Origin: Nitzschia sp. DOCU1
Lineage: Eukaryota; Bacillariophyta; Bacillariophyceae; Bacillariales; Bacillariaceae
Length of the DNA stretch: 64,000 nucleotides
Assembly: GCA_951394045.1 (NCBI GenBank)
Contig: OX595986.1
Span: 4,927,534 to 4,991,533, forward strand
Direction of reading: 5' to 3'
Numbering within the stretch: position 1 is the stretch's first letter; each line of letters starts with the position of its first letter. Of the stretch, positions 28,357-34,786 are shown one piece after another. The notes beneath the pieces are model-generated. The model was not told the origin of the DNA and searched no databases. It saw only the letters and a list, made by a program, of their open reading frames with translations. A program made the position numbers and the translations under genes.

Positions 28357-29427
28357 ATGGCCCCACTCGCCCTGTCTTCGTCGAAACGCCGCTTGCTAAA
28401 GAGCGCCTCTTCCTTGGGCAGTGGCACTTTGCAAGAGGACAATCAGGTCGAGTGGTCCACAAAGTCGTCGGCGGCATCGGCACTCGTCGACGCCCCGCCT
28501 CAGGGATGTTCCTCCTTCCATTATGACTTTGATCCAACCACGGGCCTTCCAGTCTTTGATATTGATGACTGTAGTGACGATGAGTTGCTCGGTGGAGAAG
28601 TGTCTCCTTTAGTGTCATTGACTCGCGACGAGGAACTGCGCGGCATTTACTACTTGAGAAGTCAACTTTCCCTCAAGGAAAAGGCCGAACTCACGGATCC
28701 TCGCATGCTCATTCGTCATTTTCGAGCCGAAAAGGGCAATGCCACCAAAGCGTTGGAGACTTTACGAGATGCCTTGCAATGGCGACGGGACTTTGAAGCG
28801 AATGCTCTACGAGTTTGCATGACTAACTCTGGCATCAGCAAGGTCAAGGGCAGCAAAGACTACGAGGCCATGATGCGGCTGGAAAATGCCACGGGCAAAA
28901 TCTTTGTCCGCGGTACGACACTGGAAGGTCGTGCCTTGATGTACATGTTTGCCATGCGAAACAATACCCATAGCGACATGGACAATATGAGACATTTGGT
29001 ATGGAACTTGGAAAAGGCAATTCGAGTCACCTTTTCAAAATCACAAGGTCGACTCGACAAGTATTGCTTATTGATTGATTGTGCCAATTACAATTTGAGC
29101 AAAGCACCATCGATGCATGCCAGTAAAATGACATTGGATGTGTTACAAAAGCATTTTAAAGAACGCATGCATCGAGTGTACATTTTGAATCCACCACTGG
29201 CCTTTCGAATTTTTTGGAAATTGGTGCAACCCTTTGTGGATCCCGTCACCAAGACCAAGCTATTGTTTTGTTCACCAGGAAGTCCAGGAGTGGAACAACT
29301 CTATCGGGAAGTGGGGCCTGAACAAGCCAAGCGATTGGAAGAATGTGCGTTTGGAACGGAACCGATTCGGGAATTCAATTCCAAAGAATATCTGGAATTA
29401 CCCATGGAAGTAGGTTTTGATGAATGA
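28357..29427 (+). CDS. SEC14-like CRAL-TRIO lipid-transfer protein
   Basis: 356 residues. The N-terminal 90 residues are polar and variable. A CRAL-TRIO N helix bundle follows (MLIRHFRAEKGNATKALETL, about 117-137), then the lipid-binding domain (about 170-330) with YCLLIDCANYNLSKAP, FKERMHRVYILNPPLAFRIFWKLVQPF and the conserved VDPVTKTKL block. These proteins hold phosphoinositides or other hydrophobic ligands and present them to enzymes on membranes. No membrane helix or targeting leader is visible. The ligand is not predictable from the sequence. Confidence 0.9.
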   Translation: MAPLALSSSKRRLLKSASSLGSGTLQEDNQVEWSTKSSAASALVDAPPQGCSSFHYDFDPTTGLPVFDIDDCSDDELLGGEVSPLVSLTRDEELRGIYYLRSQLSLKEKAELTDPRMLIRHFRAEKGNATKALETLRDALQWRRDFEANALRVCMTNSGISKVKGSKDYEAMMRLENATGKIFVRGTTLEGRALMYMFAMRNNTHSDMDNMRHLVWNLEKAIRVTFSKSQGRLDKYCLLIDCANYNLSKAPSMHASKMTLDVLQKHFKERMHRVYILNPPLAFRIFWKLVQPFVDPVTKTKLLFCSPGSPGVEQLYREVGPEQAKRLEECAFGTEPIREFNSKEYLELPMEVGFDE

Positions 29428-29957: not shown

Positions 29958-32900
29958 TTACTCCATTAACTCACGGCATGGAATAGTCCCGTTCCCTCCA
30001 TTCAAAGAGCACACCTGACCTGTGGGGTCATACTCATCTTCGTCGTCCACCCGCTTCATGGCCCCGGCCAGACGAAAACGTTCCGCACGCCGACGAGCCA
30101 ATTCCCGTACTAGCTCTTCTTCTCCAAAGTCAGCGAGAGCCTGACTAGTAGCGCTAGTTGCCGTTTTGGATTCAAAGTGCTCTGGTGTGGATTCCTTCTT
30201 CTCTTCTTCGCCCTCGCTGACGCCGTTGGGCCTGGCCCTTTTGCCTTGACGAGAGTTGTCTCCCTGCTGTCGACTCTTTGTCTTCCGGTGGGTTTCCTTG
30301 CGACTCTTGTCCAAAGCCTCTTCCGTGTACGATCGTAGAATAGCTGTAGCGTCATCGTGCATGAGCGGCAACAGAGACCGCTTTATGTTGTCGTAAAAGT
30401 AGGGATACAAGCTTTCTTCTTTGGCTAACAACTTTTTGATGCGAGCGCGTTCTTTGGGCTCTTCGAAACACGCGGGGCAGTTTTCGTTGATAATGGGAAG
30501 ATTGGCCGATTTCGCAAAGTCAGTCATGACAGATTCTCGACAATAGGCCAATGGACGAATAACAGATAAGTCGCCTGCGTTGATTCTATAGTTGGCTGTA
30601 GCCCAAAACAAGGAGAGCAGGAGGTTAGAAGTAAAGAGCACTTGTCCGTGCACCGCCCGGGAATTCCAACGACTTGCCTTTCATGGTCCGCAAAAAGCCA
30701 TTATGCATAACACTCATCATGAAAGACTCTGCCAAGTCATCCAAATGTTGCGCCAAGACGAGTTTGTTGCAGTTGTTCTTTCGAGCTGTTGTGTAGAGAT
30801 TGCCACGTTTCATGCGAGCGCAGAAACTGCAGAGCGACGAGACCACCTTTCCGTCCTTGCCTGCATTTGCAGCTCGTTCAACAATATCATCCCGAATGTA
30901 ATGGTACTTGAGTCCAAGCGACTCGACGTATGGAATCAATGGCGACGGATCAAAGGAAGGAGTCATTGGATCAATTGTACAAACTTCGATCTCAAAATTG
31001 ATCGGCAGCTTCTTTTTGAATTCCAGTAGTACGTGCAATAGACTAAGAGAATCCTTCCCACCCGACAGTCCCAGCAACAGTCGATCTCCTTCTTCAAGCA
31101 TATCCCTGTGATTTTGGATATTGTCCAGTGGGTTAGCGGGGTGCCCCTAAAACATCAAATATGTAATATCTACGTACCATTGGATAATGGCTTGCGTCAC
31201 TAAACGCATCATTTTGGCTGGAGGCTTCACGTGTTTATGTCGCTTCTGCTTTGTGGGCTTTTCGGTGGGCGTGACTTCGGGAACGGAGCTAATGGAAGGG
31301 TGAATTGCCACCATACAGCCTTGACCCCAGGCTGCCGAGTCTCGTTGCGGCTTCTTCTTTTCGTGTTTTTCAATGACAGGTACATCCGACGGTAAAGGCA
31401 CGTCCGGGGGTAGATTGCTCATCTTTGAGACTCCTTTTGCAACAGCCGTCTGTCGACGTCGCTCAAGGGCGGCGTCAATTACTTCCCATTGACCGCTGGC
31501 GGAATCATATATTTGGCAGTTTGAAGACAATTCCCCATCGTCGTAGCCTACCTCAATCTCTTCCCACGACGCTAGACCAGAGTGCTCTCCATCTCGGAAT
31601 GTGACTGCTTCGGACGCTGCCGCATTTTCTATCACAGTGGTAGGACCGGCACTTCCTGTAGTCGTAGGAGCCCGCTCGTTTGCCGACGGAGCCTGCAAAA
31701 ATTCCGCAATAGAGGACCACGAGTCGGATTCTGGTTGATAGACAAGACAAGCCTCCGTCAATTCTCCATCATCAAAGCCCGCTCGAATCTCATGCAGCGA
31801 GGCCGTTCCGGTATGTTCGCCTTCGCGAAATTGAAACGTAGGGTGCGTGTCCTTCGCCTCTGTAGGTGCGCTGCTTGATGGAGCTTCCTCCGACATGGCA
31901 ATAGGGGATCCCTCTTGTTCATCCTCCACTGGAAACCATGCAATGGGTCGTACTGCACCCACAAGGGCAGTCTTATCCATCGTGCCAGGCACATGGTCTA
32001 GTCCTTGCTGCAAAGACAAGGCGACTTCTTTTGGATAGACATACCACCTTAGCAATGACAAGGTTGAAGAATCCTCATCTTTTTCATGAGACATTTTGAT
32101 AGCTTGGACCAAACTCGCATGATCATTCACAACAAGCTCCAATAAGCGATTAGCCGCGGCCATGGCTTCTGTCAACTCTGGCGCAACCTCCTGACTACTA
32201 TTTGCGGTCAGATCCGTCCGACCTAATACATTGCTCTTGTAGTGCGACAACCATTTGCGTGCCGTCTTTCCCAAGGGAGCCCCCGGTCTTGATTTGTGTC
32301 GCCATTCTCCTGTTCGATGATTGCAACGATATACATGCATCAACTTCCATCCATGTTGGGCAACCCATGATATAGCATCCAACACATAGTTTGCAATTGC
32401 CTCGGTAGTTCCAAAGGTCGGCAAACTCAGTCGAGTAAAGCCCGGCCTCAACAGTTCATCCTTGGAATGAACGAGACATTCTTCCACTGCCGCATTCACT
32501 GTTCCATTGAGGCCCAACAAATACTGAGCATAAGGGCCGGCACATTGACAGCCTCCCCTGGATTGAATTCCAAAAATATCGTTGAGCAAGGTGCAGACGT
32601 AATTGTAATGAAGAAATCTCGTTCCGCACTTGATCAAAAAGGAAAAGATTGGGAGCTTTTGTTGATGATGATTCGACTTGCCACTGCTGCCATCATCGCC
32701 GTCCATGAGAACCAAATTTGGAATTTCTGACAATTTCTGTTGGATGCGTTGTGCGCGAAGCAAATCGTAATCGAGCACCGTCTGCGTTGTGGCAGTCGTC
32801 GAAGTCATTATTTGTTGGAATTGTTTCTTGAGTTGTTGTTTGGCGGTCAATGCCAGTCCCAATCTCCAAATCCCCACAATATTGGGCGTCCCACCTTCAA

Positions 32901-34100
32901 ATCGTTCAATCCGATTGGATAAGAATCGATGATGTTTGGCCGTGACATAAAAGACGGTTCCTCCGCCCGATCTCGTAGGTGGATTCTGTTGACTGACTAA
33001 ATGCTTCTTGATGATGAGTACTCCAGGAGTTCCAACGCCGCCCAACAATTTGTGCCCACTAAAGAGAATGGCGTCCTTGGCAATGAGTTCGTGTTGGTAG
33101 TCGGGATGCGTCGGATTCATTTGTCCATCCAGATAACTAGCGGCCGTGGCATAGTCCCAAATACTCAAGGCGCCGTAGGTATGTAAAAGCGCCGTAATAG
33201 CAATATCATTGGCAATGATTCCAGTGACATTGGACGCTGCGGAAAAGGCTCCAATCTTAACGTCTCGATTCTGGTAGTGTTCTAGCAATTGTTTCAAATG
33301 CTCCAAATCCACATTTCCTTGGTTGTCCAGTCGAACCATTTCAATATCGACTTGACCCAGTTCTCTCCATGGCAACAAATTGGAATGATGTTCGTAGGGT
33401 CCCACAAAAATGACAGGCTTGCTATTGTTTGTAGTAGTCGTGACGCCGTCGGTCGTTTGGCGCAAAATGTGATGCTTGAGTCCCAGACAGTCAATGAGCA
33501 ATTCTACCGCCGACGTGGTTCCATTGCCACTAAAAGAGGGATTCCACGTTGTTAGACATTTTCTCACTCACATTCCACACATTTGCCTAGCCACGTTTAT
33601 ACTCACGCAAATAAGACAACATCCGCACTGGCTTTTCCCGTCGTTTTGGCGCCAAACACTTCTCCCACAATTTGTCTCGCTTCACTACAAAAGGCCGTCG
33701 ATTGACTTCCCACCAAACAAGTGTTGGTATGAGTATTGCCGTAGTAGGGCAAGCATTGTTGTTGCAAATGCGCTTCGACACTTTGTAAAGGTCGATGACT
33801 CGCCGTGAAATCACAATATACCAGAGGCAACGCGGCAGGATGGCCGGGTGTCCACTCCAGGGGCGAAGTGACAACAGCCGACGCAGACCCCACGACATCT
33901 TGAACGATTCGTTGACGCAATTCTTCAACGGAAGACAGCGATCCAGCTGTATGAATCGGCGTGTCCAGCTTTTCGTCTTCGTGTTGTTCATGTGCTTGTT
34001 CCGACAAGGAAAAGCCACTTTCGAGAATCATTGATGCAGATGTCATGGGAGAATCTTCCTTGTTTCTGGCATTCGACATTGCACTCAAAGAATCCATCAT
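29958..34100 (-). CDS. Cysteine-desulfurase-like PLP enzyme - GYF-like - TtcA tRNA 2-thiolase fusion
   Basis: Four exons fit: 34100-33607, 33529-31178, 31105-30678 and 30595-29958, giving 1303 residues. Introns are 77, 72 and 82 nt; the last uses a GC donor (GCAAGT). Residues about 60-560 are a class V PLP enzyme: YGNTHTNT, FAGNGTTSA (built across intron 1), SGHKLLGG with the Schiff-base Lys about 325, and SRGGCQCAGPY with Cys about 492/494. Two GYF-like modules lie at about 730-776 and 808-854. From about 935 the chain is TtcA-like: a helix KMMRLVTQAIIQW, PP-loop SGGKDS (963-968), CSFC (1041/1044), AQHLDDLAES, and CPAC (1131/1134) for an Fe-S cluster. TtcA makes 2-thiocytidine at tRNA position 32. 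The PLP part could supply the sulfur in cis. The fusion sits inside one uninterrupted exon, so it is not a splice-model artefact. Confidence 0.85.
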
Positions 34101-34786
34101 GTCAGGTGCAGATGAGCTCTGGGGCTGCTCCTGCCTAGTAGTAACAGCAATAGCACCAGGGGTAGTGAAGGAACTCTATGGCATTCACTTCTATTCCCAT
34201 GGTCGACGTCGACGGCTTATTTTCGATGTTCTATCTAAACTATGCGGTGGGTGGTGGCAGCACAAAGGCTCATAACCTAAAAAGAAGTCGGCCTAGTCGA
34301 CCATGGAGATAGTTTGCTAGTCAATGGAAACAGGGGCTGGAATCACTCACACTGTCGACGATTTTCGTACGGATGTACGACTGCGACTTGAACCAACAGC
34401 TTGGTATGGGGCTTGGTGTTACGGGTGGCCGAACTGTGTGTTCATCGGATCTCCTTTGGGGTGGCCGAACTGTGTTTGTTATCGGGCCTTCTTTGGACGA
34501 TTTGTTGAATGTTCGAGTACGAATGGACAATTACTGCTTTGGATGCACGGCCGGAATGGGGTCCAGCTGACAGGGTGCCACGGCCTAAACATCGCTTTGG
34601 GCGGTGGCGTCGCACTTCAGTTGTGATGTTTGTTGTGCTAACGACGAACCCTGCGAGAAGGCGCTTGCTGCTAGTGCATTTGATTCCTCGCTATGTGATA
34701 TTTTAATGCTTATACTAGAACTCGTTGCGGTGTGGTGGGTCTAGACTGATGATTCACGGCTAACGACGAGTTTGGAAGGTCTCCAC
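34101..34786. other. Upstream region of the desulfurase-TtcA gene
   Basis: 686 bp. A 17-bp direct repeat GGGTGGCCGAACTGTGT occurs at about 34424 and 34461, lying inside plus-strand frames that otherwise look random. The promoter of the minus-strand fusion gene should be here. Confidence 0.4.

Follow-up and report, generated by a model that had tools for sequence, protein, structure and literature searches.

Can one eukaryotic protein both release sulfur from cysteine and insert it into tRNA? Cytosolic tRNA thiolation in eukaryotes is attributed to several separate proteins acting in a chain, with CTU1 at its end. The question is raised by a locus of the diatom Nitzschia sp. DOCU1, which lies in a stretch of 64,000 nucleotides of contig OX595986.1 (the window, to which all positions refer). 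Between positions 34100 and 29958 of its minus strand, the window sequence yields a model of one gene with four exons that encodes a protein of 1303 amino acids. A SufS-fold cysteine-desulfurase-like domain is followed by two GYF-like modules and a TtcA-type PP-loop domain. To judge from its sequence, this is a single gene with both catalytic sites complete, and its product is probably a self-contained tRNA thiolation enzyme, most likely located in the cytosol.

Exon 1 (33607..34100) opens with the ATG at 34100 and encodes part of residues 1-165. Exon 2 (31178..33529), an uninterrupted stretch of 2352 nt, covers most of the desulfurase, its C-terminal module, the linker with both GYF-like modules and the start of the TtcA-like domain. 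Exon 3 (30678..31105) holds the PP-loop and the CxxC motif of that domain, and exon 4 (29958..30595) the NCPAC motif, the C-terminal tail and the stop codon. Introns 1 (33530..33606, 77 nt) and 2 (31106..31177, 72 nt) are of the GT-AG type, and their spliced products read LFAGNGTTSAVE and QAIIQW-DMLEEGD. Intron 3 (30596..30677, 82 nt) is a GC-AG intron (GCAAGT...CTACAG) with the spliced product RTMKANYRINAGDL; it restores the family-typical RTMKANY, with spacing identical in 97 of the 99 relatives (of 120) in which the motif is readable. A 46-nt GT-AG alternative for intron 3 was rejected, as it would leave an insertion of 12 residues, unlike the spacing in relatives. Pfam recognises Aminotran_5 at residues 94-509 (E 2.6e-36) and the PP-loop family (E 1.1e-11), both above the Pfam cut-offs; these scans and the PRK10696 scan below were run on the 1315-residue model with the 46-nt intron. 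A preliminary description of this DNA had placed a desulfurase-like and a TtcA-like enzyme in one gene, with a shared uninterrupted exon and a 72-nt intron spliced to IIQW-DMLEEGD, and the four-exon model and the homologues agree with it on each point. The open exon and the relatives suggest that the locus is expressed as a single mRNA. A scan of 31000-32100 for prokaryotic promoters and terminators, which is uninformative on eukaryotic promoters, found nothing beyond what shuffled sequences give.

The same architecture was sought in other organisms. A search with the window protein gave 1258 hits, and in a profile scan all 120 listed matches carry the desulfurase followed by the TtcA domain; the named ones come from diatoms, Triparma, oomycetes and one ciliate record. 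A second search used a long query into which a bacterial TtcA-like domain had been placed; it gave 838 hits, and 117 of the 120 listed show this order, the other three having TtcA only. With two proteins common to both lists, 235 of the 238 distinct listed homologues carry the fusion. Names in the second, broader set include Pylaiella, Chrysoparadoxa, Paraphysomonas, Mucochytrium, Saprolegnia, Guillardia theta, Cardiosporidium cionae, Acrasis kona and Salpingoeca rosetta. The sources among the matches listed thus reach beyond diatoms and oomycetes to a cryptophyte, an apicomplexan, a heterolobosean and a choanoflagellate, if the higher groups that we assume for most of the named organisms are right. 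The sequence name Rmarinus we take to stand for Rhodelphis marinus, and transcripts named m.NNN presumably come from choanoflagellates; they group with Salpingoeca at 100/98 in the TtcA tree. The preliminary description had considered two separate mRNAs; complete transcript open reading frames (ORFs) run across the fusion in other species (P0013, P0033, P0046, P0242 and P0243). The Ectocarpus and Ochromonas entries are partial, with TtcA only, and that from Acropora is a broken model. Among the matches listed, few of them named, no fusion from a prokaryote was recognised, in searches that are no census. What is listed is a sample: the best 120 of 1258, of 838 and, for the bacterial desulfurase treated below, of 7998. 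The architecture is present in other diatoms and not specific to them, and the sequences indicate that the fusion has been co-inherited over a long time. Its occurrence in very distant eukaryote groups makes the joined protein look like a one-piece sulfur route into RNA that is old and has been overlooked. The ciliate record, P0003, is named Tiarina fusus and holds a diatom-like fusion (55% identity over 96% of the query), likely from prey or contamination in the transcriptome.

The class-V, SufS-fold desulfurase-like domain with its C-terminal extension spans residues 61-579 (32287..33920, with intron 1 inside). Conservation was read from an alignment of the listed homologues, which leaves aside the rows gapped at a position (2 to 22 of them) as well as two with a desulfurase span above 900 residues. 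The predicted pyridoxal phosphate (PLP) lysine, K325 in a GHK motif (33049..33051), is K in 228 of 228 aligned homologues, 5 being gapped. The predicted persulfide site is the CxC loop formed by C492 and C494 (32542..32550), with C at both positions in 231 of 231 aligned homologues and 2 gapped. The PLP aspartate, K325 and the two cysteines show no substitution where aligned; of 237 rows, with two proteins counted twice, a cruder pattern search recovers CxC in 213, reads other letters in 9 and gives no reading in 15. The catalytic cysteine sits in an R-x-G-x-x-C-A-x-P loop, as in class-V / SufS-type desulfurases, and over a short segment (8.4 bits) C494 matches the cysteine in RSGHHCALP, a motif of a solved desulfurase, and C492 matches a histidine. 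The presence of Cys 492/494, first proposed as possible persulfide donors, is thereby confirmed, and the loss of the PLP lysine or the cysteines, which would have spoken against the enzyme, is not seen. The SufS fold itself was recovered by a structure search with the model of the oomycete homologue P0116; desulfurases fill the matches listed, with no TtcA-like structure among them. The domain shares with the SufS/CsdA-type (group II) desulfurases the PLP lysine, the histidine, the aspartate, the fold and the position of the catalytic cysteine. It differs in having CxC for HHC in the loop, in its C-terminal extension and in its score against SufS proper (TIGR01979), 122.5 bits, far under the cut-off of 475.1. 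Past the desulfurase lies an LRWYVYPKEV motif (residues 658-667, 32023..32052). LRW occurs in 201 of the 238 listed homologues, and a counterpart, NPLRWYTLAQD, ends a stand-alone Saprospiraceae protein.

The TtcA-like domain comprises residues 919-1179 (30333..31269, with introns 2 and 3 inside). Its SGGKDS PP-loop (residues 963-968, 31048..31065) shows no substitution in 231 aligned homologues at the five of six positions scored. C1041 and C1044 of the CxxC motif (30820..30831), predicted cluster ligands, are kept in 228 and 229 of 230 aligned homologues. The second CxxC (CPAC, 30468..30479) has C1131 in 212 of 214 and C1134 in 210 of 213, and is the predicted source of the third ligand. The best NCBIfam match is TtcA, the tRNA 2-thiocytidine(32) synthetase, and PRK10696 matches with E 5e-55. 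The U34 thiolase model CTU1/NcsA (NF047749) gives 32.1 bits against a cut-off of 500, and the domain is thus closer to TtcA than to NcsA (202 vs 32 bits). With TtcA (NF007972/PRK10696) it shares the sequence family, the SGGKDS PP-loop, the CxxC and a second CxxC with one predicted ligand; it differs in its score, in its place in the tree and in having its own desulfurase fused. In a tree of 50 rows, 34 fused and two bacterial rows split at 100/100 from 13 canonical TtcA proteins and the second TtcA of the diatom genome. The tree places the fused half outside the canonical clade; long branches meet at this split, and no root was inferred. The two rows from bacteria are not grouped together, and one of them falls without resolution among the fused rows. 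They are the two matches that stand out (55% and 49% identity, 266 and 210 bits) when 398 Pseudomonadota genomes are searched with the fused TtcA domain; matches occur in 181 genomes, the others listed at 32-39%. Of the TtcA assignment in the preliminary description, the PP-loop and both cysteine pairs stand, but the domain is not an ordinary TtcA: clade, score and a second, canonical copy in the genome speak against that. The protein ends in a conserved tail (within 29958-30595) that reads QVCSLNGGNGTIPCRELME, with C1287 and C1298. A C-terminal tail with a cysteine pair occurs in 66 of 102 and 16 of 86 homologues that extend 40 residues or more past the TtcA domain; the tail might carry persulfide on a swinging arm or serve in targeting.

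From these features we infer desulfurase activity, an iron-sulfur (Fe-S) cluster, direct transfer, tRNA as the substrate, the base that is modified and the compartment. The PLP domain, through K325, would take sulfur from L-cysteine, to be held as a persulfide on C494 and perhaps passed to or from C492. The linker, long and flexible, would let the CxC loop reach the TtcA-like domain, where the cysteines of CxxC and CPxC (C1041, C1044 and C1131) would hold an Fe-S cluster whose free iron accepts the sulfur. We chose C1131 as the third ligand by an assumed analogy with the cluster cysteines of E. coli TtcA. The SGGKDS PP-loop would adenylate the 2-oxo group of an anticodon-loop pyrimidine, cytidine 32 (C32) or uridine 34 (U34), which the sulfur would then replace. 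A tethered donor and acceptor, as first proposed for this locus, is the natural reading of the fusion.

Several results weigh against such a self-contained enzyme. The TtcA-like domain of the corrected model scores 202.1 bits and misses the canonical TtcA cut-off (NF007972, 272 bits), as do three other fusions (230.9, 224.4 and 215.8 bits); all four fusions and both bacterial TtcA-like proteins lie between 196.9 and 230.9 bits. The substrate of this half may thus differ from that of TtcA. Fused rows fall on one side in only 9% of 200 bootstrap TtcA trees, so that no single origin is shown. The desulfurase half groups with bacterial RGGC[AS]CAG proteins, split from SufS-like rows at 100/99. The eukaryotic rows come out on one side in 14% of 200 bootstrap trees and the bacterial rows in 84%, a result that neither requires nor excludes a single origin of the eukaryotic rows. 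A predicted structure model reached a predicted template modelling score (pTM) of 0.61. In both fusion searches the proteins admitted were limited to 0.55 to 1.75 times the query length, and stand-alone halves are excluded by this; 120/120 and 117/120 show the presence of the fusion, not the frequency of unfused halves in eukaryotes. Many of the 238 homologues come from metagenome contigs. Around the 14 bacterial loci nearest to the desulfurase half (L006-L019, 13 of them with RGGC[AS]CAG), no TtcA-like gene was found up to 6 kb on each side, or less at short contigs, and no such desulfurase lies in the 19.5 and 14.5 kb surrounding two bacterial TtcA-like genes. The bacterial neighbourhood gives no independent link, so that the evidence for a functional one lies mainly in the fusion itself. 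Among 80 loci, one in an archaeal metagenome-assembled genome (L072) has a SufS-like gene with a PP-loop neighbour a few kb away, a weak case at 24% identity.

The other sulfur genes of the genome bear on which base the enzyme would modify. The fused gene was rejected as the only TtcA of this diatom: a stand-alone, canonical copy (L086, G000:C6:1351319-1352140) scores 339.9 bits, above the 272 cut-off. From an internal ATG it opens with a signal-like stretch (...QSTLCFVSTAFW), which we take to be a plastid presequence, and it is probably a plastid protein; the fused protein lacks a start of this kind. On one reading, possible but less likely than not, the fused enzyme makes 2-thiocytidine 32 (s2C32), the known TtcA product, in cytosolic tRNA. 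TtcA is its best curated match, and cluster ligands and PP-loop are kept. Set against this are its score below the TtcA cut-off and its place outside the canonical clade, and the accessible part of a review reports s2C32 in bacteria and archaea and in no eukaryote (PMC5372739).

In six-frame searches of the 52-Mb genome, neither Urm1 nor CTU2 was found, and no match to CTU1/NcsA was better than the two TtcA-type genes. With URM1, CTU1 and CTU2 undetected, U34 becomes an alternative to s2C32 as the product: the enzyme would thiolate U34 of cytosolic tRNA-Lys/Glu/Gln, standing in for the URM1-CTU1-CTU2 route. Elp3 (729.6 bits), two MnmA-type loci and two loci of the ThiS family of small sulfur carriers were found in the same genome. 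However, this is one genome of uncertain completeness searched in six frames; the CTU2 model was silent in all 14 control genomes, which makes its answer weak, and the Urm1 model matched just one of them. The absence of CTU1 and Urm1 is firmer than that of CTU2. With one CTU1 query, an approximate sequence, another PP-loop ORF came up as a weak hit (E 0.0096). The closeness of the domain to TtcA rather than NcsA also speaks against U34, a product that we regard as about as probable as s2C32 or slightly less so. The genome holds further PP-loop genes: two near-identical ORFs of 691 and 682 residues (L001 and L002, G000:C1), about 147 kb apart on the same contig and presumably TilS-like, and an ORF of 910 residues in which DUF924 is joined to a PP-loop domain (L003, G000:C4:2258838-2262413).

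The fused desulfurase could also mainly feed other acceptors or its own Fe-S cluster, with the tRNA sulfur coming from elsewhere. Its bacterial kin are stand-alone enzymes of about 550 residues, named 'aminotransferase class V-fold PLP-dependent enzyme', from Bacteroidota, Pseudomonadota and Bacillota; they carry RGGC[AS]CAG and, in at least one case, the LRWY motif, and belong to the same desulfurase group. A search with the bacterial desulfurase gave 7998 hits, and the TtcA domain is absent in 120 of 120 listed relatives, the named ones being bacterial; the length window of this search admitted stand-alone desulfurases, hence only these among the matches listed. Together with the 14 loci that lack a TtcA neighbour, this means that the domain can work without TtcA. 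Against this stands the persistence of the fusion across very distant eukaryotes with both sites intact, and we hold such a division of labour to be unlikely. Three relatives of the bacterial desulfurase (P0210, P0219 and P0228) carry a cyclic-nucleotide-binding domain, PF00027. That two proteins or mRNAs arise from the locus, or that the join is a gene-model artefact, is highly improbable: the Fistulifera and Ectocarpus database models are partial, but the 2352-nt exon is uninterrupted and the domain order recurs among the listed homologues, including complete transcript ORFs. On this recurrence a chance ORF or an assembly join was likewise rejected.

Between the two halves, the linker folds poorly in prediction (pTM 0.27) except for its two modules, at residues 730-777 (31693..31836) and 807-853 (31465..31605). 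Both fold confidently, with a predicted local distance difference test score of about 90, and the six best PDB matches of the predicted modules are GYF domains, at weak E-values of 0.31 to 0.54. By sequence, the window segment reaches 18.4 bits for GYF_2 (PF14237) against a cut-off of 25.8, and does slightly better for Kelch_1 (19.3 vs 20.1); one of seven relatives scanned, P0009, passes the GYF_2 cut-off with 28.4 bits. A profile built from the window protein and eight relatives finds the modules in 88 of 120 listed homologues of the diatom-rich set and in 0 of 118 of the broad set, and a role as core part was rejected on this count. The two modules that had been described between the halves are thus present, though weak by sequence and outside the core; they are a diatom/bolidophyte extra, perhaps for protein docking. 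Thalassionema nitzschioides has two diverged copies of the fusion, P0030 and P0095 (41.6% identical across 700 alignment columns in their N-terminal part), and P0095 gives five GYF-like module hits, the last one weak.

Around the gene, a 36-bp tandem repeat of two copies lies upstream (34423-34496), and a convergent neighbour on the plus strand (28357-29427) encodes a CRAL/TRIO domain. ARAGORN found no tRNA genes in the window.

The fusion can be compared with known sulfur systems. IscS and TtcA of E. coli are two distinct proteins, according to the accessible part of the review (PMC5372739). Natural fusions of desulfurases are described: cysteine desulfurase (CD)-rhodanese of Pseudorhodoferax, which is bifunctional (PMC8931425), ABA3 (CD-MOSC), SufS-SufU and selenophosphate synthetase-NifS (PMC8931425, PMC6006210). 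They likewise tie a desulfurase to a sulfur or selenium protein, and in the accessible text of these papers none is described with a tRNA-modifying domain. A literature search covering few subscription papers found no published description of a desulfurase-TtcA fusion. Table 2 of a 2009 study gives 21 novel multidomain proteins common to Phytophthora and diatoms; the fusion is named in none of its entries, some of which read just 'Hypothetical protein' or 'Novel' (PMC2705460, accessible part). The database name 'selenocysteine lyase/cysteine desulfurase/tRNA(Ile)-lysidine synthase' indicates that automatic annotation sees both halves. With the URM1-UBA4-CTU1-CTU2 route the fusion would share eukaryotic cytosolic tRNA thiolation by a PP-loop enzyme, but that route uses several separate proteins and a ubiquitin-like carrier. 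It is conceivable, though we advance it with much reserve, that the fusion is an ancient one-protein eukaryotic system of two bacterial-type parts, distinct from the URM1-CTU route and with desulfurase and Fe-S thiolase joined for good, that took over cytosolic anticodon-loop thiolation (U34, or an s2C32 so far unreported from eukaryotes) from URM1-CTU1-CTU2 in lineages such as this diatom.

The fusion hints at a possible role of the bacterial CxC desulfurase group. It would make testable whether eukaryotes form s2C32, or how U34 is thiolated in lineages without URM1-CTU1. If the proposed function is true, the protein would offer a ready-made system in which to watch persulfide transfer to an Fe-S thiolase, and its fused donor and acceptor would be a second eukaryotic route for cytosolic tRNA thiolation.

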